Shown: piece by piece, positions 1-12,062 of the stretch | Numbering within the stretch: the first letter of the stretch is position 1 | Layout: the number at the start of each line of letters is the position of its first letter | Assembly (NCBI GenBank): GCA_024691045.1 | Contig: JAILOC010000058.1 | Coordinates: 1 to 12,062, forward strand | DNA: 12,062 nt | Reading direction: 5' to 3' | Source of the DNA: Lachnospiraceae bacterium | GTDB taxonomy: Bacteria > Bacillota_A > Clostridia > Lachnospirales > Lachnospiraceae | Program-made: the position numbers and the translations under genes | The notes under the pieces: generated by a model | Told to the model about the DNA's origin: nothing | Seen by the model: only the letters and a program-made list of their open reading frames with translations | Database searches by the model: none

Positions 1-114
1 TGCATTTGCTCCGCCCTGAAATCTGATGATGATATCGGAATCCTGGGCAAGCATATCGGTGATCTTGCCTTTTCCTTCATCACCCCAGTTAGCGCCTACG
101 ATCGCTGTGACCAT
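1..114 (-). CDS. purA: Adenylosuccinate synthetase PurA, N-terminal part only (runs off the left edge)
   Basis: PurA condenses IMP and aspartate using GTP to give adenylosuccinate, the committed step to AMP, in the cytoplasm. Only the first 38 residues are visible. They contain the family's N-terminal GTP/IMP-binding loop, read here as [11 protein letters not shown] (residues 7-17), followed by [11 protein letters not shown], which matches the conserved region just before the GHT motif of the family. The ATG at 112-114 is preceded by AAAGGCGG seven bases upstream, a usable ribosome binding site. The gene lies 95 bp downstream of purB on the same strand and appears to have its own promoter in that gap. 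Nothing can be said about the rest of the enzyme. The identification itself is secure. Confidence 0.95.
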
Positions 115-150
115 TTAATTTCCGCCTTTCAAATCTAAAACAACTTGTTC

Positions 151-165
151 CGGGGATAAGCCCCG
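151..165 (-). promoter_or_regulatory. GC hairpin at the 5' end of the purA leader
   Basis: The minus strand reads CGGGG-CTTAT-CCCCG, a 5-bp all-GC stem with a 5-nt loop, beginning two or three bases after the predicted start of the purA transcript. It has no T-run after it, so it is not a classical terminator. A stem at the extreme 5' end could protect the message, but that role is an inference. Confidence 0.45.
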
Positions 166-172
166 ACTGTCT

Positions 173-201
173 ATTATATGTTAATGCTTTATTTTAGTAA
201 A
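173..201 (-). promoter_or_regulatory. Predicted sigma-A promoter for purA
   Basis: On the minus strand the gap between purB and purA holds TTTACT (196-201), a 17-bp spacer and a perfect TATAAT (173-178). This is the same -35/-10 pair and spacing as the promoter at 9926-9954. Transcription would start near 167-168, giving a purA leader of about 53 nt. The -35 hexamer lies within the inverted repeat 181-208, so factors or structures acting on that repeat could affect this promoter. purA could therefore be transcribed both from here and by readthrough from purC-purB. This is predicted from sequence only. Confidence 0.7.
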
Positions 202-208
202 GCATTAA
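181..208. repeat. Perfect 11-bp inverted repeat between purB and purA
   Basis: TTAATGCTTTA (181-191) and TAAAGCATTAA (198-208) are exact inverse complements around a 6-nt loop. The repeat starts 1 base downstream of the purB stop and overlaps the -35 and spacer of the predicted purA promoter. The stem is AT-rich and no uninterrupted T-run follows it on the minus strand, so it would be a weak terminator at best. It could be the purB 3' hairpin, an operator over the purA promoter, or both. Confidence 0.6.
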
Positions 209-209
209 A

Positions 210-1667
210 TCAAACATTTATCTCGGCGCCCATTCCGAGCACGTCCGCATTGGCCTTAAGCACAGGATCCACCACATCCCTGAGGTAAACCTCGACCTGT
301 CTGGGAGCACGTCCGACATAGTTTTCGGGCTTTAATGTCTTCTTAAGATCGTCAAGGTTCATTCCGAAGCCGGGATCGGCTGCGATCATCTCGAGAAGGT
401 CGTTGTCACGTCCCTCTTCCTTGACATGCCTGCCCGCTTCCATGGAAAGGGTTCTGATCTTCTCATGAAGCTCCTGACGGTTTCCGCCGTTCTTTACGGC
501 ATCCATCATGATGTTCTCGGTAGCCATGAAGGGGATCTCTGCCATGAACTGCTTCTCGATGACCTTGGGATATACCTTCATTCCGCCGGGAGCGGTGATG
601 TTCATGCACAGATCGAGTATTCCGTCGGTTGCAAGGAAGCCCTCGGGAACGGAAAGTCTCTTATTTGCGGAATCGTCGAGGGTTCTCTCAAACCACTGTA
701 CGCTGGATGTGATCGCAGGATTGAGCGCATCTACCATTACGTATCTTGCAAGGGAAGCGATCCTTTCGCTTCTCATGGGATTTCTCTTGTAAGCCATTGC
801 GGAAGATCCGATCTGGGTCTTCTCGAAGGGCTCTTCAACCTGCTTTAAGTGCTGGAGAAGTCTGATATCGTTGCTCATCTTGTGAGCTGAAGCGGCGATA
901 CCTGCAAGTACGTTGACCACTCTTGTATCAACCTTACGTGAATAGGTCTGCCCGGATACGGGATAAACCGCATCGAATCCCATCTTCTTAGCGATCATGG
1001 GATCGATCTTGTCTATAGTCTCATCATCTCCGTTAAAAAGCTCCTTGAATGAAGCCTGGGTTCCGGTTGTTCCCTTTGAACCGAGGAGCTTGAGAGAACC
1101 GAGGACATAATCAAGGTCCTCAAGATCGATCATGAACTCATTCATCCACAGCGTCGCTCTCTTGCCTACGGTAGTGGGCTGAGCGGGCTGGAAATGGGTA
1201 AATGCGAGTGTGGGAAGATCCTTATATTCATCGGCAAATTTCGCGAGATTGGAGATGACATTGAGGAGCTTCTTACGGGTAAGCTCAAGCGCTTCCTTCA
1301 TAAGAATGATGTCGGTATTGTCACCCACATAGCAGCTGGTCGCGCCGAGGTGGATGATGCCGGCAGCCTTGGGGCACTGCTGTCCGTATGCATAAACATG
1401 GCTCATTACGTCGTGGCGTACGACCTTTTCCCTTTCGCGTGCCACATCGTAATTGATGTCCTCTGCATGGACTTTAAGTTCATCTATCATTTCCTGAGTG
1501 ATGACGGGCTTGCCGTTTTCGGAAAGTCCGAGTTCCATCTCAGTCTCAGCAAGTGCGATCCAGAGCTTCCTCCAGGTACGGAACTTCTTGTCCTGTGAAA
1601 AGATGAACTGCATCTCCCTGCTTGCGTATCTCTCGGAGAGCGGGCTTGAATAGCAATCTGTAGCCAT
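210..1667 (-). CDS. purB: Adenylosuccinate lyase PurB, long eukaryote-like form
   Basis: PurB cleaves SAICAR to AICAR and adenylosuccinate to AMP, releasing fumarate in both steps. It is a cytoplasmic homotetramer of the fumarase/aspartase superfamily. Visible hallmarks are RHDVMSH with the family histidine H85, LGATSCYVGDNTD (107-119), THFQPAQ with the catalytic-type H158, TTGTQASF (200-207) and the mobile signature loop GSSAMAYKRNPMRSER (287-302), which carries serines S288/S289. At 485 residues it is about 50 longer than the Bacillus enzyme and close to human ADSL in length and motif spacing. From memory, the human loop reads GSSAMPYKRNP; here alanine replaces proline. The ATG at 1665-1667 has AGAAAGG seven bases upstream. 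It lies 48 bp downstream of purC and 95 bp upstream of purA, so cotranscription with purC is likely. Confidence 0.97.
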   Translation of the reverse strand: MATDCYSSPLSERYASREMQFIFSQDKKFRTWRKLWIALAETEMELGLSENGKPVITQEMIDELKVHAEDINYDVAREREKVVRHDVMSHVYAYGQQCPKAAGIIHLGATSCYVGDNTDIILMKEALELTRKKLLNVISNLAKFADEYKDLPTLAFTHFQPAQPTTVGKRATLWMNEFMIDLEDLDYVLGSLKLLGSKGTTGTQASFKELFNGDDETIDKIDPMIAKKMGFDAVYPVSGQTYSRKVDTRVVNVLAGIAASAHKMSNDIRLLQHLKQVEEPFEKTQIGSSAMAYKRNPMRSERIASLARYVMVDALNPAITSSVQWFERTLDDSANKRLSVPEGFLATDGILDLCMNITAPGGMKVYPKVIEKQFMAEIPFMATENIMMDAVKNGGNRQELHEKIRTLSMEAGRHVKEEGRDNDLLEMIAADPGFGMNLDDLKKTLKPENYVGRAPRQVEVYLRDVVDPVLKANADVLGMGAEINV

Positions 1668-1715
1668 AATAAAACCTTTCTAATAATGCTTGCTTCTTTA
1701 CGTACCGTTTATGTA

Positions 1716-2588
1716 TCAGAGCTCTTTTCCGGTAAGGAGTCTGTATCCCTCAAGGTACTTGGCGATGGTCTTGTCAACGATGTCCTGAGGAAGTGTCCAG
1801 TCATGGTTTCCGTCGTTAGCCTTGAGCCAGTCACGTGCAAACTGCTTGTCAAAGGAAGGCTGTCCCTTTCCTGCCTCATAGCCTTCGAGAGGCCAGAATC
1901 TGGAGGAATCGGGAGTGAGCATCTCATCGCCGAGTACTACATTGCCGTTTTCATCAAGTCCGAACTCGAACTTGGTATCGGCGATTATGATGCCTCTGGT
2001 AAGTGCATAATCGGCACACTTCTTATAAAGAGCAATGGTAAGATCCTTAAGCTGCTTTGCGAGCTGCTCGCCCTTTCCGGGATAGTACTTCTCAAGATGT
2101 GCGATGGACTGTTCATAAGAGATGTTCTCGTCGTGATCGCCGATCTCAGCCTTGGTGGAAGGGGTGTAGATGGGCTCAGGGAGCTTCTCGCTCTCTTTGA
2201 GTCCCTCAGGAAGCTTAATTCCGCAGACGGTGCCGTTCTTCTGATATGAAGCCCAGCCGCTTCCGGTGATATATCCTCTTACGATGCACTCAAGGGGAAG
2301 CATCTCGAGCTTCCTGCACATCATGGAATTGCCGACAAACTGAGGCTGTCTGAAGAATTCGGGCATCTCATTATTATCAACGGTGATCATATGGTTGGGA
2401 ACGATGTCCTTAGTGTAATCGAACCAGAATTTAGACATCTGGGTAAGGACGGTGCCTTTCTTGGTGACGATATTATGAAGGATCACGTCGAAACAGCTGA
2501 TCCTGTCGGTTGCCACCATGATGAGGGAATCCCCGTTATCATAGATCTCTCTTACTTTTCCTGCTTTTACCGGCTTAAGTTCTTCCAT
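1716..2588 (-). CDS. purC: SAICAR synthetase PurC, long Ade1-like form
   Basis: PurC joins CAIR and aspartate using ATP to give SAICAR, the substrate of PurB encoded next in the operon. Motifs seen in order: GKVREIY (10-16, glycine-rich ATP-binding start), TDRISCFDV (27-35), LPLECIVRGYITGSGW (97-112, first family signature), IIIADTKFEFG (200-210, second signature) and DEMLTPDSSRFW (221-232). At 290 residues it is longer than the roughly 240-residue Bacillus form. Its C-terminal QPSFDKQFARDWL segment resembles the yeast Ade1-type enzymes. The ATG at 2586-2588 is preceded by a very strong GGAGGAG (2596-2602) seven bases upstream. It is the first gene of the purC-purB(-purA) cluster and has its own promoter. 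Confidence 0.97.
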   Translation of the reverse strand: MEELKPVKAGKVREIYDNGDSLIMVATDRISCFDVILHNIVTKKGTVLTQMSKFWFDYTKDIVPNHMITVDNNEMPEFFRQPQFVGNSMMCRKLEMLPLECIVRGYITGSGWASYQKNGTVCGIKLPEGLKESEKLPEPIYTPSTKAEIGDHDENISYEQSIAHLEKYYPGKGEQLAKQLKDLTIALYKKCADYALTRGIIIADTKFEFGLDENGNVVLGDEMLTPDSSRFWPLEGYEAGKGQPSFDKQFARDWLKANDGNHDWTLPQDIVDKTIAKYLEGYRLLTGKEL

Positions 2589-2605
2589 TTTCTATCTCCT
2601 CCAAA

Positions 2606-2623
2606 TGGTCTTTACAAAGACCA
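2606..2623 (-). promoter_or_regulatory. Inverted repeat / hairpin at the purC transcription start
   Basis: TGGTCTTT (minus strand) and AAAGACCA pair perfectly around two bases (7-8 bp stem). The repeat begins at the predicted transcript start and ends 3 bases before the GGAGGAG ribosome binding site. It could be a 5'-protective hairpin, a structure that tunes ribosome access, or a DNA operator just downstream of the -10 box. The leader is only about 33 nt, too short for a purine riboswitch. Confidence 0.5.
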
Positions 2624-2627
2624 AAAT

Positions 2628-2656
2628 ACTATACACTTTTATACCCGTTGATGCAA
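2628..2656 (-). promoter_or_regulatory. Predicted sigma-A promoter for purC-purB
   Basis: The minus strand holds TTGCAT (2651-2656), a 17-bp spacer and TATAGT (2628-2633). Transcription would start near 2621-2622, immediately before the ribosome binding site region. I see no paired PurBox motifs of the Bacillus type upstream, so any purine control is not evident from sequence. Confidence 0.65.
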
Positions 2657-2677
2657 ACCTTAATAGATTGACGAACG

Positions 2678-2900
2678 CCGTTGCGGGGACACATCTGTTT
2701 TTATGCGATTTTAGAGCGATGCTTTAGCTGTTCTTAGGAATGCATCTACCTCAGCACAATTTCGCCGTGACGGCGAAATTAGCGAACCTGAGCAATGGAT
2801 TGCGAATGTGAGCGGTGCGGGGCCATCGGAGTATATGCATTCCTTAGAACAGCTTAGCGAGCGACCAATGAGCATAAAAACAGATGTGTCCCTGCGACGG
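2678..2900. repeat. 223-bp nested imperfect palindrome (MITE/REP-like element)
   Basis: The outer arms 2678-2706 and 2872-2900 are inverted complements over 29 bp with two mismatches (core GGGACACATCTGTTTTTATGC). A second pair, 2726-2745 and 2835-2854 (AGCTGTTCTTAGGAATGCAT), matches with one mismatch. The centre carries a perfect 10-bp hairpin at 2758-2780. The arms are separated by less well paired stretches, so the element folds as an interrupted long hairpin. It has no open reading frame of its own and I see no obvious target-site duplication. It sits between the stop of the membrane coiled-coil gene (2914) and the purC promoter (2656) and is the only strong structure there, so it may also end or stabilise the upstream operon's transcript. 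A non-autonomous mobile element or REPIN-like repeat is my best reading. A cis-acting structured RNA is the alternative. Confidence 0.7.
2758..2780. repeat. Central perfect hairpin of the palindrome
   Basis: AATTTCGCCG (2758-2767), loop TGA, CGGCGAAATT (2771-2780): a perfect 10-bp stem with a 3-nt loop. It is flanked by CTCAG (2750-2754) and CTGAG (2788-2792), which can extend the structure after an internal loop. Just to the right, GCGAACCTGAGC (2782-2793) is echoed by GCGAATGTGAGC (2802-2813), 10 of 12 bases identical and 20 bp apart. Confidence 0.65.
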
Positions 2901-2913
2901 TTACAGCAATGAT

Positions 2914-4095
2914 CTACAATTCGTTTTCGGGTTCGAATTTTTCGGTCATTTCAAGGATCTCCTGTGCGTACATCGGATAAGTCCTGGCAACATCCGTGAT
3001 CTCATCCTTGGCAGAGCGTGCCCTGGTCTCGTTGTAGTCGATCTGTTCGCGGAGTGCCTGACGTCTCAGGATCAGTCCGTGGCGGAGCTCCACCATCTCT
3101 CTTTTATCAAGAAGTGCGGCAATCTGGTCGATCCATCTGGCGGGGCTGGTCACATGATATCTTGCAAGAAGCCTTATGAGGTCCTCCTTGGCCTGGTGAA
3201 GGCCGGTTGTGTTCTCATTGAACTGCCTGCGGTCCTCCGCTTCCTGCTTATACATTCCCCAGAGCTGCTCAAGCTCCTGACCGTTCTTGCACTCGTACTT
3301 GATGTAGAGATATGACAGGAGATTCCTGTTATTGACATATCTGATCTTGACAGTGTTCTGGAGCTGAATGAGCTTGCCCATGTTGCCGGACGCGCGGCCG
3401 AGCTCCTTGTCCGCATCGATGTACCTGACGCATACAACGGTTATCGCGATCGCCGCCGCGGCAATGCAAAGGAAATATCCGATATAGACGTTCATATCAA
3501 GTGCAAACTGCATGACCGCAAGGATGACCATAAGGCCTGCCGCTGCCGCAGCAAATATCACGGCCATACCGCGAAGATTCTCCATCGAATCCTTAAGCTC
3601 ACTCTTTCTGAATGCGACCGCTTTTCTCTCACCGTCAAGTCGTTTTAAGTCCTTCTTGATGAGAACAGCCATGCGCTCGTTTTCCTTGATCGAAGCAAGA
3701 CCGCCCTCGATCTCATTTTCCCTTCGTCTGAGCGAAGCAAACTGTTCATCGGTAAGAGGTGATTTTCTGGTACGGAATTTCTCGATATCGCTCTCATAGG
3801 AAAGGAGCTTTCTCGCAACCGAATTAACCTCGGCTCTCTGGGCATCGGGAAGAGCTTCTATCTCCTCCATGTCCTTGAGATATGAGGTTACCTTTTCGTA
3901 TTCGCCCTTGAGCATGTCAATCTCACGGCTGCCTTCTGCTATCTGCTCAAGGCATTCCGCGATATATCTGGTACGCTGCTGCTGATCGTGGAAGTTTATT
4001 CCTTCACGTTCATAGACTATATCTTCAAATATGAGCTCATCGTCCGAAGATATGGCATGTGATGCTTTTTTGAAAAGTTTAGAAAAGAATCCCAT
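2914..4095 (-). CDS. Unknown coiled-coil protein with two membrane segments, last gene of the four-gene operon
   Basis: I do not recognise a named family. The 393-residue protein begins with a short basic amphipathic stretch (MGFFSKLFKKASHAI). A long, charged, probably coiled-coil region follows (about 36-175), rich in Glu, Lys and Arg. Two closely spaced hydrophobic segments come next (about 176-198, Ala-rich, and 202-223), then a second helical charged region to the end. There is no cleavable signal peptide. A hairpin of two membrane helices would leave both coiled-coil arms in the cytoplasm, so it looks like a membrane anchor or tether. Its ATG directly abuts the TAA of the TPR gene (TAAATG) and the upstream ribosome binding site is weak, which suggests coupled translation. 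A membrane partner for the other operon products is inferred from context. Confidence 0.85.
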   Translation of the reverse strand: MGFFSKLFKKASHAISSDDELIFEDIVYEREGINFHDQQQRTRYIAECLEQIAEGSREIDMLKGEYEKVTSYLKDMEEIEALPDAQRAEVNSVARKLLSYESDIEKFRTRKSPLTDEQFASLRRRENEIEGGLASIKENERMAVLIKKDLKRLDGERKAVAFRKSELKDSMENLRGMAVIFAAAAAGLMVILAVMQFALDMNVYIGYFLCIAAAAIAITVVCVRYIDADKELGRASGNMGKLIQLQNTVKIRYVNNRNLLSYLYIKYECKNGQELEQLWGMYKQEAEDRRQFNENTTGLHQAKEDLIRLLARYHVTSPARWIDQIAALLDKREMVELRHGLILRRQALREQIDYNETRARSAKDEITDVARTYPMYAQEILEMTEKFEPENEL

Positions 4096-4956
4096 TTAGT
4101 TCACCGGAACCATGCTTCTGTATTTTTCCTTAAGGCCTTCGAGGATATGCTCGTTATCGGCGTGCTCATCATCTTCTGCGATCTGCTGTCTTATATTCTT
4201 CATGATCATATGGGAGATGCCTTCGCCGGTTGCTTCGTATTCCTTTTTCAGTGCATCGATCTCACTTTCGATGGCTATCGAATCGGGACCGAGGTCCTGA
4301 TTCTCCGCTACGTATTTGATGAACTGTGTTCCCGTCATTGAAAGCCTGAGTGCCGCGATATAGCTGTGACGGTGTTCGGGTGTTGCATCGTATTCAAAGG
4401 CCTTCCTGAAGCTTTCGGCGGCAAGACGGTACTTCATCATGCCGGCATACGAATAGCCGAGGTTGTGATATATGCTTCCCATAAAAGCGGTCTTGGCAGG
4501 GGAATTATCGCTCCCTTCCGCACTCCACTTATCGATTATGTTCCTGTAAGCGTGGATCGCGGCATCGTAATTTCCTGATTCCGCAAGATTGTCTGCCTGT
4601 TTTTTCTGGCGCTCCATTACAGACATGCCGGCGCCCATGGTGAGAGTCTTAACGGTCTCGAAGACAACGCTTCTTTCAAAAAGACCGGTGTATTCAAGAA
4701 TGTATCTGCAGAAATCACCGAGGTTTGCCTTGCCGTGCAGCATGCCCATAAGCGCATCCGCAAGCTCGCGCAGGGCAAGGTCCCTGTAGATCCATTCGAT
4801 CAGGTTCTTGTTCATTATCTGGTCATCTATCAGCACGGCATTTTCACGGAATGCAACGCAAAGCTCCTCTATGCAGTATACCGGTATCTCAATGCCGGGT
4901 ATCACATAGGGGACCTGAGAATATATTCCGATGCCGAGTGAAATCCTTGATGCCAT
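4096..4956 (-). CDS. TPR-repeat protein of unknown function, third gene of the operon
   Basis: The 286-residue soluble protein has an N-terminal helical region with IEIPVYCIEELCVAF (22-36) and no family I recognise. It is followed by two TPR-like units: about 115-145 (NLAESGNYDAAIHAYRNII, with the typical G-Y/A-A spacing) and about 160-190 (YHNLGYSYAGMMKYRLAAES). The C-terminal 60 residues are charged and helical. TPRs normally bind other proteins, so an adaptor role is likely. I chose the ATG at 4954-4956, which overlaps the upstream stop as TAATG. The frame stays open to a TTG at 4981-4983 (nine residues longer), but that start would lie inside the previous gene. GAGGAG lies about 14 bases upstream of the ATG, rather far, which also points to coupling. 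Confidence 0.85.
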   Translation of the reverse strand: MASRISLGIGIYSQVPYVIPGIEIPVYCIEELCVAFRENAVLIDDQIMNKNLIEWIYRDLALRELADALMGMLHGKANLGDFCRYILEYTGLFERSVVFETVKTLTMGAGMSVMERQKKQADNLAESGNYDAAIHAYRNIIDKWSAEGSDNSPAKTAFMGSIYHNLGYSYAGMMKYRLAAESFRKAFEYDATPEHRHSYIAALRLSMTGTQFIKYVAENQDLGPDSIAIESEIDALKKEYEATGEGISHMIMKNIRQQIAEDDEHADNEHILEGLKEKYRSMVPVN

Positions 4957-6260
4957 TACGGTAATGTTATCTCCTCTTCCCAAGTATTGGCCTTGGTGTG
5001 CGTAAATGCCCCGAGGCCCATGTCTTCTATCTGTATGCTGAGTGTCTTTATGCCTGACATAGATGCACTCAGCTTCATTCTTGTAAGCTCTCCCTCATAT
5101 CCTTCGAGGGTAATGATGACGTCCGAATTGCCCGCGCCCGTAATTGACGAGACGGTAAGCGTGATATCGTTGCCTCCCGAGATATAGAACTCCACGGAGG
5201 CTACCGCTTCATACCAGCAGGTTCCCGCATCGAGCAGGGCATAGTACACATCGGATCCCTGACTCAGAAGATGCATTCCGATATTGCTGGAAAGCTTGTC
5301 ATCTCCGAGGAATATATGATCGGGATGATCCTGAAGGGAGGGCTTATCCTTACCGGGACGTCCGTCATCAAGAAGGTTCTTGTCGAGCAGTGCATAAACC
5401 GCACCCTTGGAAAAGAGATTGGTTCCGCCGAATACCTTGCCCTTGCTGCACATATACTTGAGCGAATTGGGAAGGCCCTCGCTGTCGAAATCCTCACCTA
5501 CGAGATAGTAGGAATAATCCTGTCCGAAAGAGCATCCGCTCTGTACAGCTCTGAACAGTATCGCATCAAATTCGTCGGGAAGAGTACCCCTGTCCTGAGG
5601 CAGTTCGAAATATGTGGTATCCGCATGTACAACCTGGGGTCTGGTGTGCTTGTTGACCGGAAGTGTTGTCATGCAGAGCTTTCTGTCATCTACGGTGAAA
5701 AGCATCGGATTTGAATAGATCTTGTCCTCACCCTGATGTGACACGTAATGATAGAAGCTTTCCGAATGGGTCATGAAATAGATCTTGTCGGTCTTGATAT
5801 GAAGACTCTTCAGCGATTCCCTGATCAGATCCATCGCAAATGTCGTGACCTCGGGAAGTGTGAACATGACCGCTTCCATCCTGTCGGACGATCCGATATT
5901 CTGGAGAAGTCCGAATGCTCTCTTCAGATAAAGAGTGAAAAGGGAATCCGCGCCGTAGACCAGTCCGTCTATCTGGGTATCTTCACCCTCAAGCGCCTTG
6001 CGGTAGATATCCTCGACAAGAACACTCTCTCCGGCATCCGATGAAGCAAATGCTTCTTTGCCGAAGAACCACTGTCCGGCACCGTGCCTCTTGGAAAGAG
6101 CCATGGGAATGACATACTCCTCCGATCCCGCGACAAGCGAAACGGTTCTGATCTCGCCGTGATCGGAACTGTAGCTGATGCCGCAGGAAGTGTCATTAAT
6201 GTCAAATCCCACAATATATCTTTTTCCGCTTCCGCCGAAGCCGCCGGGAAGTTTTAACAT
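4956..6260 (-). CDS. Degenerate Hsp70/actin-fold protein (DUF5716-like), second gene of the operon
   Basis: The 434-residue N-terminus reads YIVGFDINDTSCGISY (15-30), laid out like the phosphate-1 loop of Hsp70-type ATPases (DnaK: GIDLGTTNS). It is followed by VIPMALSKRHGAGQWFFGKEA (from 50), like the IPS...VGxxA segment. Later elements are eroded. The place expected for the second phosphate loop (DLGGGT in DnaK) reads MLFTVDDRKLCMTT (186-199) with no glycines, and the adenosine-motif region is plausibly VFGGTNLFSKGAVYALL (276-292). The C-terminal third (about 345-434) is beta-rich and could replace the substrate-binding domain. ATP binding is therefore uncertain and hydrolysis doubtful. From memory it resembles Pfam DUF5716, unverified. 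There is no signal peptide or membrane segment. The start is 1 bp after the upstream TGA, with GGAG four bases before the ATG. Confidence 0.8.
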   Translation of the reverse strand: MLKLPGGFGGSGKRYIVGFDINDTSCGISYSSDHGEIRTVSLVAGSEEYVIPMALSKRHGAGQWFFGKEAFASSDAGESVLVEDIYRKALEGEDTQIDGLVYGADSLFTLYLKRAFGLLQNIGSSDRMEAVMFTLPEVTTFAMDLIRESLKSLHIKTDKIYFMTHSESFYHYVSHQGEDKIYSNPMLFTVDDRKLCMTTLPVNKHTRPQVVHADTTYFELPQDRGTLPDEFDAILFRAVQSGCSFGQDYSYYLVGEDFDSEGLPNSLKYMCSKGKVFGGTNLFSKGAVYALLDKNLLDDGRPGKDKPSLQDHPDHIFLGDDKLSSNIGMHLLSQGSDVYYALLDAGTCWYEAVASVEFYISGGNDITLTVSSITGAGNSDVIITLEGYEGELTRMKLSASMSGIKTLSIQIEDMGLGAFTHTKANTWEEEITLP

Positions 6261-6261
6261 A

Positions 6262-9200
6262 TCACTCCAGACTGAACAGTTTTCTGTTCATGAACTCCTT
6301 TTGATAGTATTCGTCGTAAAGCTTGTCGAAGGTCTTGCCGTCCTGAAGGGTGTTGCTTACGAGCATATCGGTTATGAGACCGAATCTCGTTCCTTCCGCG
6401 GGACCGAGAACATCATTCTTCCTGAGCACTCCGCTCGTACGAAGCTCCGATGCCGAACCCGTCTCTTCCGTGATGTAGTACTGTACGCACTCTCCGAAAA
6501 AGAGGATGAATTCCTTGAAGCATACACCTCCGCACACTTCTCTCATGCGTTCTTCTCTGTATTTTCCGGTCTCGCCGGAATCACTTGCAAAGGTGTAATG
6601 GATGATCGCGCTGTTTCCTTCGGATGCCCTGTAATCTATGATCGTTCTGTCGCACATGACATCGAGGACTTCAAGCAGCTTCATCCTCAGCTCACCCTCG
6701 GGGAACGAATCCTCGGAAAGGAAGCTCTGGAACATTCCGAGATGTATCCTCTCCTTCATCATCATGCCGAGAAGCTTTATAATTCTGACACGTATGTCAT
6801 CATTTATCTCTTTGGGATTCTCCGAATAATACTTCAGGTATGCGAGTGCCGCTTCCTTGGGGAACTGCTCTCCTTCGCCTGCGAGTTTGCCAAGCTCTTC
6901 GAAAACATTCGGGGATATCAGCTTCTCGTGAACGAAATAGTCATAGCAGGACTGGAGCAGGAATGCCTTGACAACTTCCGTATCGGGATTCATCGTCAGA
7001 TAATCGGCAAATATCTCATTCCTTTCACCGACAAACGCACCGCTGTAGAGCATCTGGATCAGCATGCGCTCTTCAAGACTTCTGCGGTCAACTCCGTAGC
7101 CTCCCGCCATCTTCCAGATATTCCTGAGGTCCTTGCACTGTCCGCGGTAATACTTCGAAAGATGCGAAAGGATGATGCCGTCCTTTTTGCCGAGGCTGAT
7201 GCAATAGATAGCCGATGCGGTAAGAACGGGATCTTCTTCCTCGGCGGGTTCGGACAGCTGCCTGTCAAGGAAGGTCTGCATATATCTGGGATCCGCAAAA
7301 TAAGGTCCGCAGTATTTGATCAGGTCATATATGGGCCTGTAGTCGGCGGTCATCAGCATGAGTCTCATGACTTCGCATCTGTTCGCGGGAGTCATAAGCT
7401 CGGGATGTGCTCCCTTAAGACCCGTTATGAGTGACGAACGGTCACCCTTCTGGGCGAAATGATCGAGAAGCTTGAGAAGGTATTCATCCGATGTATTTCT
7501 GTCAAGCTCCGCGGAAGCCGCAAGATTCTGATACCTGAGAATGTTGCTGTCATCGATCCTGTCATCCTTCTTCGATGAAGCAAGTGTGATCATATTGAAT
7601 CTGTCGTTGTCATATACACAGTCGGATACGGCCTTCATGAACTTGCCGGGAAGCATGAGCTTTTCGAGAGTGTATTCACCGCTCTTTACAAATCTGTTCC
7701 CGTTTACATCCTCGAGTGCGATCACATAATCGCTGCCGTATACCGATATCCAGCCTCCGCCTTCCCCGAGCTTGTACTCCCAGGGATGCCTGAAGCCCTT
7801 CTGGTAAACATACGCCTTGACGAACCTGGGATCCGATGACTGGAGCCATACGGAAAAGAGCATGTCCGCGAAGATCCTCGCATTGCTCCTGTCGAGCGAT
7901 GCGGGGCTTAAGACATCATAATAAACGGCCGCAAGATGTCTTGTGATGATCCCCTTTGAAATCTGGTCCATCGCAAAGCTTTCCATCTTGGGCTGATATA
8001 CTTCGATGAGATTTCCGAGTTCTCTTTTATGCCTGATCACATAGTGATACAGATAAGCGGTATGAAGAGGATCGAGAGTATCGGACATCGAGAAATATTT
8101 AAGAACGTTCATGGGGATATCCTCGAAGGAATCCTCATCAAGGCTCATAACATAATTCTCGTAAAGATTGGTAAGTCTGATATCTTCAAGAGTTGCTTGC
8201 TTGTACCAGGCTGCGGATTCACTGTCACGCCTGAAGCTCCTGATGAGCTGTGAACAGATCTCTTCAAGTATGCGGTTATCGGGACTGACCGTATACATTG
8301 CCTCAAGATCCTTAAGAAGGAGGGGAAGTGCAGTCCTGCTTCTGCCGGAGATATAGAGAAGGTTTTCTTTCATCTCCTCCCCGAGCACATTTTTCCTGAG
8401 TCCGAAAAGGATAGTCTGAAGCGTATATCTGTCGGGCTCCGATGCAAGGGAAGGTTTATCCTTGAGAATGATCGCACCTTCGGCAAATATCGCAGGGCTG
8501 TTATGTCCTTCCTCGCAGAGCTTTCTCATTGCATTCCACATACCCTCCGCATCACCGTTTTCGGCGAAGCGTACCTTGGCGTGGAGCCATCTTACTCTCC
8601 AGTCATCGCTGAAGCGCTTGGACATATCATCTAAATGTCTCCGGGAACGCTTAGCTATCGTCTCGTTAGGAAGTGAGGTGCTGAGGAAATCAAGATATGC
8701 CATATCAAGGACGAAGGTCCTGGAATTGGACGCACGTCCGCTTTCGTTCTTTTCCAGTAGTTCGCTTGCATATCTGCAGGTCCACTCAGCTTCACTGTCC
8801 CTTCCCTGGATAAGGAGAAGATGTGCCTGCATCAGCTTGGCGGTGATATCGTATTCATCAAGCGTGAGCATCTGGTCGATCAGCCTGCCCATCTCGGCAA
8901 TGAAAGCACTGCCTGCAGTGATGCCGAGCATACTGCGGATATAGCACTCCGTCACCTTTATGTTGAGGTTCTTTCTGGCGCGCTGCGTTTTGGAACTCTG
9001 CACGCCCCTGTCAATGCTCAGCCATACCGGAATGACGAGCTCCGTATATGAATTATAAAGAATGACTTTGCCGGGATGGAGTCCGGGAGCACATCCCGAA
9101 GGATCCACGAAAAGTCTTAAGGGACAGATGTTGCCGGAAAAGTCGGCACCCGAAAGTGTCTTGGCTTCCGTGAAGATAAATCCGCCTTCGCACTTTACGG

Positions 9201-9891
9201 AAAGACCGGTATATCCCCAGCCGTCCTTGCCTATTTCTATGCTTATCTCCTTGAGGTCGGAGGTTCTGTTCCTGGATGATACATTGACGTTGATCTCGCC
9301 GCCCCTGTAGGTGTAAGTGACACGGTTTTTCTTTCCCGCGTAGATAAGGAATTCCTCAACACCCTGCTCCGCTCCGCGCTTATGCGAAAGAGCCTTGTAG
9401 GAAAGCTTGGTCTGCGTATCGGCATCCGCAATTACATAGGGGAATTCCTTGGAATAGAAAAGCTCTACGGCCTCATCCCAATTCGATCTTGCAAGATTGG
9501 TGAAATGAAAGAGATTTTTAACAGGCCCGATGGATGACTCGGGTACGGACCTGATGATGTTTACGGTAAAAGGGATATAGTACTCTCCCATATTCGAGAT
9601 AACGGAAAATACACCCTTTATGGTGTCTCCTTCGTTACAGTATTCCTTTTTGAGAAGATATGTGATCTCGGAATCGGAACCGGTTAGCGTGTCCGAAATA
9701 AGCTCCATCCTCAGGTCAGAGGATATGACCTTACCCTCGGGAACGGTGCCCGCCGGCGAATAAACGTGAAATGACCCTTCATATTCCTCCCCCATCGGAA
9801 TATCAAGCTCAATCCTGGAACAGGAAAAATCAAGAGACAGATCTTCAGATGTGTAATTGCCCTGTAAAATCCTCGAAAGAACCCGGCGCAT
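6262..9891 (-). CDS. Very large beta/alpha-solenoid protein (DUF5717-like), first gene of the operon
   Basis: The 1209 residues contain no signal peptide or membrane segment, so the protein is probably cytoplasmic. By eye there are five zones: an N-terminal beta-rich part (1-295) that looks like two Ig-like sandwiches (first about 15-112, ending IPFTVNI; second about 195-295, ending LVIPVWLSI); a helical, TPR-like solenoid (about 310-685, e.g. AKLMQAHLLLIQGRDSEAEW); a small beta insert (about 690-755, WEYKLGEGGGWISVYG); a second helical stretch (about 785-1090); and a mixed C-terminal region with TFASD and FFGECVQYYITEE. No catalytic motif is evident, so a scaffold is the likeliest role. From memory it matches the size and Lachnospiraceae distribution of DUF5717 proteins, unverified. 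The ATG at 9889-9891 has GAGGGG three bases upstream. A consensus-like promoter lies just beyond it. Confidence 0.85.
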   Translation of the reverse strand: MRRVLSRILQGNYTSEDLSLDFSCSRIELDIPMGEEYEGSFHVYSPAGTVPEGKVISSDLRMELISDTLTGSDSEITYLLKKEYCNEGDTIKGVFSVISNMGEYYIPFTVNIIRSVPESSIGPVKNLFHFTNLARSNWDEAVELFYSKEFPYVIADADTQTKLSYKALSHKRGAEQGVEEFLIYAGKKNRVTYTYRGGEINVNVSSRNRTSDLKEISIEIGKDGWGYTGLSVKCEGGFIFTEAKTLSGADFSGNICPLRLFVDPSGCAPGLHPGKVILYNSYTELVIPVWLSIDRGVQSSKTQRARKNLNIKVTECYIRSMLGITAGSAFIAEMGRLIDQMLTLDEYDITAKLMQAHLLLIQGRDSEAEWTCRYASELLEKNESGRASNSRTFVLDMAYLDFLSTSLPNETIAKRSRRHLDDMSKRFSDDWRVRWLHAKVRFAENGDAEGMWNAMRKLCEEGHNSPAIFAEGAIILKDKPSLASEPDRYTLQTILFGLRKNVLGEEMKENLLYISGRSRTALPLLLKDLEAMYTVSPDNRILEEICSQLIRSFRRDSESAAWYKQATLEDIRLTNLYENYVMSLDEDSFEDIPMNVLKYFSMSDTLDPLHTAYLYHYVIRHKRELGNLIEVYQPKMESFAMDQISKGIITRHLAAVYYDVLSPASLDRSNARIFADMLFSVWLQSSDPRFVKAYVYQKGFRHPWEYKLGEGGGWISVYGSDYVIALEDVNGNRFVKSGEYTLEKLMLPGKFMKAVSDCVYDNDRFNMITLASSKKDDRIDDSNILRYQNLAASAELDRNTSDEYLLKLLDHFAQKGDRSSLITGLKGAHPELMTPANRCEVMRLMLMTADYRPIYDLIKYCGPYFADPRYMQTFLDRQLSEPAEEEDPVLTASAIYCISLGKKDGIILSHLSKYYRGQCKDLRNIWKMAGGYGVDRRSLEERMLIQMLYSGAFVGERNEIFADYLTMNPDTEVVKAFLLQSCYDYFVHEKLISPNVFEELGKLAGEGEQFPKEAALAYLKYYSENPKEINDDIRVRIIKLLGMMMKERIHLGMFQSFLSEDSFPEGELRMKLLEVLDVMCDRTIIDYRASEGNSAIIHYTFASDSGETGKYREERMREVCGGVCFKEFILFFGECVQYYITEETGSASELRTSGVLRKNDVLGPAEGTRFGLITDMLVSNTLQDGKTFDKLYDEYYQKEFMNRKLFSLE

Positions 9892-9925
9892 TTACCCCTC
9901 ACCATACATTCACAAAGTTACTGAA

Positions 9926-9954
9926 ATTATAGCAAATTTTCTGAATTTAGTAAA
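9926..9954 (-). promoter_or_regulatory. Predicted sigma-A promoter of the four-gene operon
   Basis: The minus strand reads TTTACT (9949-9954), a 17-bp spacer and TGCTATAAT, an extended -10 with perfect TATAAT (9926-9931). Start of transcription is expected near 9918-9919, giving a leader of about 28 nt. The -35 hexamer sits in the T-rich tail of the htpG terminator. I see no CIRCE or other heat-shock operator here. Confidence 0.75.
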
Positions 9955-9959
9955 CAAAA

Positions 9960-9984
9960 AAGCCCCGTAAAATACGGGGCTTTT
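9960..9984 (-). terminator. Intrinsic terminator after htpG, sequence-symmetric
   Basis: AAGCCCCGTA (9960-9969) and TACGGGGCTT (9973-9982) form a perfect 10-bp stem with a 3-nt loop. On the minus strand it is followed by a T-run (CTTTTTTG, into 9955), and it starts 18 bp after the htpG stop. On the plus strand it is followed by TTTT, so it could work both ways, although no plus-strand gene ends here. Confidence 0.9.
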
Positions 9985-10000
9985 CGGTATTTTCCGATAT

Positions 10001-12062
10001 TTATTTTTCGCCTGCCAAAAGCATCAGGATGTCGTTGCTCCTGGCGATGAAAGTTGCCATGTCATCGGCGGAAAGAGGAGCCTGCTGGATCTTGGCAAGG
10101 TCATAGAGCTGCTCACAGATAAGGCGGGTGTTTTCACCATCCTCATGCTCTGTCACATACTTTACGAGAGGATGTCCGGCGTTCAGGATGAGTGTCTCTC
10201 CCTCGCTTCCGAAATCGCCCATATCCATGCCTCTTGCAGCATACATCTTCATCATATCCTGCATACGCCTGGTCTCTTCGGAAAGAGTGAGCATGGAAGC
10301 GACCTTCTTATTCTTGAGCTTCTCTACCTTGATAGTGATCTTATCCTTCTTGAGGGCCTTCTTCATGATGCCTTCGACGGTCTTGGTAAGCTCACCGAGT
10401 TCTTCCTCGGTCTTCTTGGACGTCTTGGTCTTCATCGCATCGGTGACATCCGCATCGATACGCTTGAACCTTACACCCTCATTCTTGCTCTCAAGCTGCT
10501 GTATGAAGGGCATATCGATATTGTGCGTAAGGATGACCGCATCCATCTTGGCAGCCTTGAACATTGCGATGTACTGGCTCTGCTGTGTGGGATCGGTGAC
10601 GTAGTAGATGGTCTTTTCCTTCTTTTCGTCTTCCGCTGCATCTTCCGATGAATCAGCTTCGGCAGCCTTATCCCCGGTCTCGCCGTCTGTCTTCTCTGCG
10701 TCCTCGTCCTCCGTGTCGATAGGCTTTACTTCAAGGCACTCGGGAAGCGTTAAATACTTACCGTCGATATTCTTGAAGAGGATGTAGTCGTTGATCTTGG
10801 TGCAGAACTTGTCATCCTTGAGGCATCCGAACTTGATGAAGGGAGCGATGTCGTCCCAGTACTTCTCGTACTCTTCCTTGTCGGTCTTGCACATTCCGGA
10901 GAGTTTCTCGGCAACCTTCTTGGTGATGTACTCGGAGATCTTGGTGACAAAGCCGTCGTTCTGAAGTGCACTTCTGGAGACGTTCAGAGGAAGGTCGGGG
11001 CAGTCAATGACACCCTTAAGAAGCATAAGGAACTCGGGTATGACCTCCTTGATATTGTCTGCGATAAATACCTGGTTATTGTAAAGCTTGATGGTTCCCT
11101 CAAGAGAGTCGTACTCCATATTGATCTTGGGGAAGTAAAGGATTCCCTTGAGATTGAAGGGATAATCCATATTCAGATGGATCCAGAACAAAGGCTCCTT
11201 ATAATCCTGGAATACCTTGCGGTAAAATTCGAGATACTGATCCCTGGTGCACTCGGAGGGATTCCTTGTCCAAAGAGGATTGGGCTCGTTGATGAGTTCG
11301 GGGCGCTTCTTGATCTTAAGACGCTCCTTGCCCTTAACTTCCTCGGTTCCGTCATCTTTCTTTTCTACCGTGGGATGGATCTCTTCAACTACGACATCAT
11401 CTTCTCTCTTATCCTCGAGATCGATGGTCTCGGTAGCATCGTCATCCTTCTTGGTGAGATATATTTCCGTGGGCATGAAGCCGCAGTACTTCTTAAGCAC
11501 TTCCCTGGCCTTGTACTCATTGCAGAACTCAAGGCAGTCCTCATTTACATAAAGAGTGATCGTGGTTCCGACCTCTTTTCTGTCACCGTCCTTAATGCTG
11601 TATGAGGTGCTTCCGTCGCACTCCCAGTGAACGGGCTTAGCATCCTTTTTGTATGAAAGGGTGTCAATATGGACCTCATTTGCGACCATAAATGCGGAAT
11701 AGAATCCGAGTCCGAAATGTCCGATGATCTGGTCCGAATTGCTCTTGTCCTTATACTTTTCGATGAAATCAGTAGCGCCGGAAAATGCGATCTTGGTTAT
11801 ATACTCCTCAACCTCATCGGCTGTCATTCCGAGTCCGTTATCGGTGATGGTAATGGTCTTGGCTGTGGGGTCGACCTCTACGCCTATTCTGCCCTTGAAA
11901 CCTTCGGGAAGCTCATACTCGCCCATCATGTCGAGCTTCTTAAGCTTGGTAACGGCATCGCATCCGTTCGAAACAAGCTCACGATAGAAAATATCGTGGT
12001 CCGAATACATCCATTTCTTGATTATCGGGAATATATTTTCGCTGTCTATCGAAAGATTTCCC
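10001..12062 (-). CDS. htpG: Chaperone HtpG (bacterial Hsp90), first few residues beyond the right edge
   Basis: HtpG is an ATP-driven dimeric cytoplasmic chaperone. The frame stays open to the window edge; the 17 residues before the first in-window ATG (12008-12010) read GNLSIDSENIFPIIKKW, the expected Hsp90 start, so that ATG is internal. Numbering from it: GHKL N-box ELVSNGCDA (11-19), DNGLGM (57-62), GHFGLGFYSAFMVA (97-110), GTTITLYV (148-155), middle-domain NVSRSALQ with the ATPase-supporting arginine (R346), and C-terminal dimerisation helices (about 611-669). A charged linker lies between the N and middle domains (about 187-235). A second, strongly acidic low-complexity stretch sits at about 430-466 (bases 10613-10723), near the end of the middle domain. 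The stop is TAA at 10001-10003, followed by a strong terminator. Its upstream control lies outside the window. Confidence 0.97.
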   Translation of the reverse strand, partial: GNLSIDSENIFPIIKKWMYSDHDIFYRELVSNGCDAVTKLKKLDMMGEYELPEGFKGRIGVEVDPTAKTITITDNGLGMTADEVEEYITKIAFSGATDFIEKYKDKSNSDQIIGHFGLGFYSAFMVANEVHIDTLSYKKDAKPVHWECDGSTSYSIKDGDRKEVGTTITLYVNEDCLEFCNEYKAREVLKKYCGFMPTEIYLTKKDDDATETIDLEDKREDDVVVEEIHPTVEKKDDGTEEVKGKERLKIKKRPELINEPNPLWTRNPSECTRDQYLEFYRKVFQDYKEPLFWIHLNMDYPFNLKGILYFPKINMEYDSLEGTIKLYNNQVFIADNIKEVIPEFLMLLKGVIDCPDLPLNVSRSALQNDGFVTKISEYITKKVAEKLSGMCKTDKEEYEKYWDDIAPFIKFGCLKDDKFCTKINDYILFKNIDGKYLTLPECLEVKPIDTEDEDAEKTDGETGDKAAEADSSEDAAEDEKKEKTIYYVTDPTQQSQYIAMFKAAKMDAVILTHNIDMPFIQQLESKNEGVRFKRIDADVTDAMKTKTSKKTEEELGELTKTVEGIMKKALKKDKITIKVEKLKNKKVASMLTLSEETRRMQDMMKMYAARGMDMGDFGSEGETLILNAGHPLVKYVTEHEDGENTRLICEQLYDLAKIQQAPLSADDMATFIARSNDILMLLAGEK

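Follow-up and report, generated by a model that had tools for sequence, protein, structure and literature searches.

The window analyzed here is a stretch of 12,062 nucleotides from Lachnospiraceae bacterium (contig JAILOC010000058.1, positions 1 to 12,062) that contains a compact operon of four minus-strand genes, encoding proteins of the Pfam families DUF5717 and DUF5716, a TPR protein, and a coiled-coil protein with two membrane helices, hereafter CC. The DUF5717 gene (6262..9891, 1209 residues, PF18984 and PF18983) is followed after one base by the DUF5716 gene (4956..6260, 434 residues, PF18980), which shares one base with the TPR gene (4096..4956, 286 residues) in a TAATG junction, and the TPR gene directly abuts the CC gene (2914..4095, 393 residues) as TAA/ATG. 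These open reading frame (ORF) coordinates agree with a preliminary description of this DNA, which had reported four packed genes with +1 bp, TAATG and abutting junctions. For the TPR gene there is also a longer alternative ORF with a TTG start, from 4983.

On its predicted model, DUF5716 is an Hsp70 without a lid and with a decayed ATPase site. The protein matches PF18980 with an E-value of 4e-62 (210.1 bits, cut-off 34.7). The AlphaFold2 (AF2) model and matches in the Protein Data Bank (PDB) outline an Hsp70/actin-fold nucleotide-binding-like domain at residues 13-298 (5367..6224, minus strand), followed by a domain like the beta part of the Hsp70 substrate-binding domain (SBD-beta) at residues 315-433 (4962..5318, minus strand), for which a profile alignment to an Hsp70 of the larger sister operon described below gave further support. 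The PDB matches extend over the SBD-beta of both DnaK and Ssz1. However, the lid, SBD-alpha, is missing: in the model the 434-residue chain stops just after SBD-beta, with its last strand at 426-432. Furthermore, the catalytic lysine and the catalytic glutamate were each present in 0 of 116 sequences and the phosphate-2 threonine in only 3 of 116. Model, PDB matches and residue loss are thus all in line with the degenerate Hsp70/actin fold proposed earlier. Among named genomes, the DUF5716 proteins nearest to that of the window belong to Lachnospiraceae, several of them from the rumen, at 90-94% identity (L001-L004, L011).

The DUF5717 protein matches PF18984 (E 1e-204, 682.5 bits against a cut-off of 25) and PF18983 (E 1e-78, 264.6 bits against 25). 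Its AF2 model, with a mean confidence (pLDDT) of 86, shows two putative Ig/PapD(ASH)-like domains at residues 27-113 (9553..9813) and 192-293 (9013..9318), a TPR-like solenoid with a beta insert, and a C-terminal beta-sandwich at residues 1082-1157 (6421..6648), all encoded on the minus strand. This architecture fits the scaffold-like beta/solenoid protein that had been anticipated, and in fold comparisons the domains matched ASH/SPD-2 and PapD-type domains, several of them from the ciliary central apparatus. The TPR protein comprises about two TPRs, for which the Pfam models score just below their cut-offs, and the conserved stretch at its N-terminus hits none of the Pfam families. CC had no Pfam match above cut-off. 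Its two hydrophobic stretches, at residues 177-195 (3511..3567) and 205-223 (3427..3483), both on the minus strand, are predicted membrane helices, and such a pair about nine residues apart recurred in 18 of 19 family CC proteins (window included) and in all four sister-operon CC proteins. Because the helices lie so close together, most of CC is expected to sit on one side of the membrane, presumably in the cytoplasm. Where present, CC is strongly conserved, with a mean column identity of 62%.

Gene order was compared in the 80 best genome loci (near set) and in 40 further loci spaced down the family listing (spread set). The genes for DUF5717, DUF5716 and the TPR protein were direct neighbors in the same orientation in 79 of 80 near loci, the 80th being cut by a contig end, and this trio was intact in 39 of 40 spread loci; thus, the arrangement exceeds chance, and the preliminary description's expectation of conserved order was borne out. 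Median gaps were 14, 9 and 3 bases in the near set and 14.5, -4 and 4 bases in the spread set. In the remaining spread locus, L182, DUF5716 and TPR protein are naturally fused in a 713-residue ORF (L182:9246-11387; domains at 2-423 and 454-710), which argues for physical contact between the two proteins. TPR clamps bind an EEVD tail, and none was found on DUF5716, on HtpG or on the C-terminal ends of sister Hsp70s compared (six per group), so that an adaptor acting through EEVD was rejected. CC followed the trio in 71 of 80 near loci compared to 18 of 40 spread loci. A whole-genome search with a CC profile gave no match in 18 genomes whose operon lacks CC, while it found the protein in both positive genomes. 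CC thus looks like a truly optional part of the operon, and the membrane anchor cannot be kept as the general component it had been taken for.

In a search of the order with PF18980, 92 of 196 genomes were positive. Some 35 of the hits were strong and family-type and some 57 were weaker, many of the latter forming pairs of ORFs with lengths near 530 and 550 residues. Twenty regions from this search were fetched (L120-L139): L127 was family-type, whereas the other 19 carried a larger sister operon. We name its four Hsp70-type products HSPa, HSPb, HSPc and HSPv. The sister loci encode DUF5717 (often as two genes), HSPa, a GrpE-type protein, HSPb, HSPc, HSPv and the TPR protein, with CC in four loci, and as far as present the genes are colinear on one strand. 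All seven core genes were found in 15 of 19 loci and three to six in the other four, and the operon comprises seven to nine genes, four of them of the Hsp70 family. Three of these Hsp70s have intact ATPase motifs and one is degenerate; in L139, HSPa, HSPc and HSPv are called Hsp70 by both Pfam and NCBIfam, and HSPv ends in a vWA domain. The GrpE-type protein has 560-645 residues in most sister loci, with the GrpE domain at its C-terminal end. This assignment is supported by a match to the GrpE of 4ani (E 0.003), by 16 GrpE-like matches in other genomes and by precomputed PF01025 annotation on 19 of 25 homologues. One such GrpE-type protein (P0125) is from [Clostridium] colinum. No J-domain or DnaJ protein was recognised among the window proteins or the sister-operon proteins scanned. 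The compact four-gene operon is real, but the preliminary description had missed this larger operon with four Hsp70-type genes.

In profile comparisons HSPb was the nearer match to DUF5716, with 2e-35 over 418 columns against 1.5e-10 for HSPc. In a tree of 72 Hsp70s, to be read with caution given its long branches and one stray row, DUF5716 formed one group (100/98) within HSPb, joined first by the HSPb of L125 (its sister, 99/97) and then by the HSPb of L124 (96/97). L125 retains the larger operon, with split genes. The simplest history would be that the family ancestor lost HSPa, the GrpE-type protein, HSPc and HSPv and kept an Hsp70 that was already without catalytic residues. By this comparison of sequences, the window's operon looks like a slimmed-down remnant of a larger four-Hsp70 machine.

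Of 199 genomes sampled from the family to which Lachnospiraceae bacterium AC2028 belongs, 197 had PF18984, compared to 0 of 14 controls; PF18980 was not found in the two negative genomes either, in a search that had no positive of its own. Across the phylum sample only 5 of 398 genomes were positive, three in the family draw and two (G426, G561), with family-type proteins, in the order draw. A sister-type DUF5717 profile matched 19 of 293 class-sample genomes; the 13 long matches were all in order-draw genomes, and the remaining six were short (E 5e-7 to 9e-4) and resemble common TPR similarity. The GrpE-type profile matched 17 of 398 phylum genomes, 16 through the GrpE domain only and one through an unrelated helical stretch, and the full-length GrpE-type protein occurred in 11 of 39 genomes of the sister family, that of [Clostridium] colinum. 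Thus, the system is near-universal in the family and confined to the order in the samples drawn, and a spread over Clostridia was rejected. Genes resembling DUF5717 at 21-25% identity were also seen on four unannotated faecal contigs deposited as 'Bacteriophage sp.' (MT835486.1, MT835988.1, MT837190.1, MT835719.1). These contigs are probably bacterial, and a phage or mobile origin was set aside.

The surroundings of the trio are less constant. Upstream in the window lies htpG (12061-10001, minus strand, NCBIfam), followed by its intrinsic terminator (9957..9985) and a candidate operon promoter (9926..9954, TTTACT-17-TATAAT with an extended -10), both on the minus strand. The single promoter proposed earlier is plausible, and this candidate was the best site, but promoter-like sites in the scanned region were not in excess (8, compared to a mean of 9.3 and a standard deviation of 3.3 in shuffles). 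HtpG was rejected as a fixed partner: its gene was directly upstream of the trio in only 16 of 80 near loci and 1 of 40 spread loci (two more spread loci had it within the locus), and in the window the terminator separates the genes. Two further genes lie 3' of the four packed genes, downstream of CC, and we take them, by their sequence, to be purC and purB. Between CC and purC (2678-2900) lie two inverted repeats, one nested in the other, of 29 nt (93%) and 24 nt (92%), which resemble a miniature inverted-repeat transposable element; Rfam gave no match anywhere in the window, and the exact 20-mer of one arm was found in 0 of 206 loci. In many near loci, forming one large clade, an ABC-transporter ATPase gene and a gene for a protein of about 288 residues without a Pfam family lie just upstream; in L030 (4597-6152) the ATPase (233 residues) overlaps its neighbor by 7 bases. 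An ORF of about 880 residues often follows the operon (L124, L125, L131, several of L162-L175, L188). In L124, where alone it was identified, it is a class I tRNA synthetase of the valyl type, and it is perhaps an older neighbor of the operon, from before the pur genes.

We lean, with modest confidence, towards a reading in which the trio forms a cytoplasmic complex built around an Ssz1-like, ATP-independent DUF5716, reduced from the larger operon and part of the family's normal equipment. DUF5717, with its Ig/PapD-like domains and superhelical solenoid, would serve as scaffold and the TPR protein as adaptor, while the SBD-beta of DUF5716 would grip a partner or client by an extended stretch of its chain, at low affinity and with no ATP cycle of its own. 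In some clades, the window's included, CC would hold the complex at the membrane, on the inner side. The larger operon, with its three ATPase-type Hsp70s and GrpE-domain exchange factor, would be ancestral and its energy-driven part lost, and any client would be passed on to the DnaK (or HtpG) that the cell has anyway; a canonical DnaK was found in 3 of 3 family genomes checked. We favor an ATP-independent holding or scaffold role, and consider hand-over to DnaK the least certain step. The holding role is favored because Ssz1, a yeast protein that lacks a lid and binds but cannot split ATP, can nonetheless contribute to chaperoning, through low-affinity SBD binding and hand-over to a working Hsp70 (PMC7083937), and DUF5716 has the same predicted build. 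More tentatively still, the family as a whole may have shed every ATPase of a four-Hsp70, GrpE-driven operon while keeping as core equipment an ATP-independent Hsp70 machine, in which a dead Hsp70 without a lid would sit on a PapD-solenoid scaffold together with a TPR adaptor. Several observations weigh against the favored reading. The first phosphate-loop aspartate of DUF5716 is kept in 102 of 116 sequences and the adenosine-side glycine in 115 of 116, so that nucleotide binding may still occur. Moreover, SBD-beta is modelled less surely, with pLDDT of 48 to 86 in 10-residue blocks from residue 311 on, many clades lack the membrane protein CC, and the operon has neither a recognised J-domain nor a recognised part for ribosome binding, which limits the likeness to Ssz1 to DUF5716 itself.

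The main rival, which we regard as rather unlikely although it deserves attention, is a structural scaffold without chaperone activity, in which Hsp70 and PapD-like folds were reused as protein-interaction modules in an assembly that serves the cytoskeleton, the cell cycle or the organisation of the envelope. Ig/ASH proteins and Hsp70 both occur in the ciliary central apparatus, from which several of the DUF5717 matches come, and the lost catalytic residues, the near-complete retention of PF18984 and the conservation of CC would all suit such an assembly. Yet three intact-motif Hsp70s and a GrpE domain in the sister operon are parts of an ATP-driven chaperone cycle, and the scan of operon products revealed no protein that forms filaments. 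A role in biological conflict, for instance against phages, is improbable because the gene set is present, in a stable order, in 197 of 199 genomes, unlike patchy defence islands. It would account for the patchy GrpE-type protein of the sister family and for weak PADLOC matches (E 5e-5 to 8e-9, candidate models) in four of five sister-operon proteins scanned, and the GTPase-centred systems of Kaur and co-workers (PMC7159879) repeatedly include Hsp70, GrpE and TPR parts. However, none of the four window proteins matched PADLOC, and no GTPase or MoxR core, effector or nuclease was recognised in the window or in the sister-operon proteins scanned. We give equally little credit to the possibility that the genes act separately and are packed because they are co-regulated with purine synthesis or because the genome is compact in general. 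Although purC lay in 61 and purB in 67 of the 80 near loci, purB was found at only 15 of 40 spread loci; the pur and htpG neighbors shift between clades while the trio stays constant, and two of its members are fused in L182.

Members of the family are prominent gut and rumen bacteria, and where a group this common carries a core operon with no assigned function, that operon is an obvious candidate for deletion. The reduced operon reveals which subunit survives the loss of the ATPases, and the sister operon could reveal how Hsp70s divide labor within one complex. We know of no other bacterial Hsp70 system reduced to a non-catalytic subunit yet kept nearly family-wide. In the open-licence literature, with most subscription papers outside its scope, we found no description of DUF5716, DUF5717 or such an operon, and a term search of the main text of a DnaK-paralogue survey (PMC11019930) did not return the word Lachnospir-.

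Compared with known systems, the window proteins match the Pfam families DUF5716 and DUF5717, which Pfam describes solely as families of unknown function. The Hsp70/DnaK-GrpE system shares the fold of DUF5716, and the sister operon resembles it in having three Hsp70s whose motifs are intact as well as a C-terminal GrpE domain; however, DUF5716 has neither lid nor catalytic residues, the sister GrpE domain ends a protein of 560-645 residues, one Hsp70 carries a vWA domain, and no DnaJ was recognised. The GAP1-N2 GTPase-centred conflict systems (Kaur et al. 2020, PMC7159879) likewise link Hsp70, GrpE, TPR and beta-rich repeats, whereas the operon here has no recognised GTPase, tubulin or effector and is near-universal in its family. 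CnuD of the CoCoNuT systems (PMC11090510) resembles DUF5716 in its Hsp70-like nucleotide-binding and substrate-binding domains, its degenerate motifs and its tie to helical repeats, but the operon has no recognised McrBC, nuclease or cold-shock domain. Ssz1, which in yeast belongs to the ribosome-associated complex (RAC), is a lidless Hsp70 that cannot split ATP; DUF5716, which on its model has no lid and has lost its catalytic residues, would be similar in build. A counterpart of its J-domain partner Zuotin was not found among the window proteins or the sister-operon proteins scanned, and no part suited to ribosome binding, as in RAC, was recognised. The two proteins are 12-13% identical, and the likeness is probably convergent, because DUF5716 appears to descend from a bacterial operon Hsp70.
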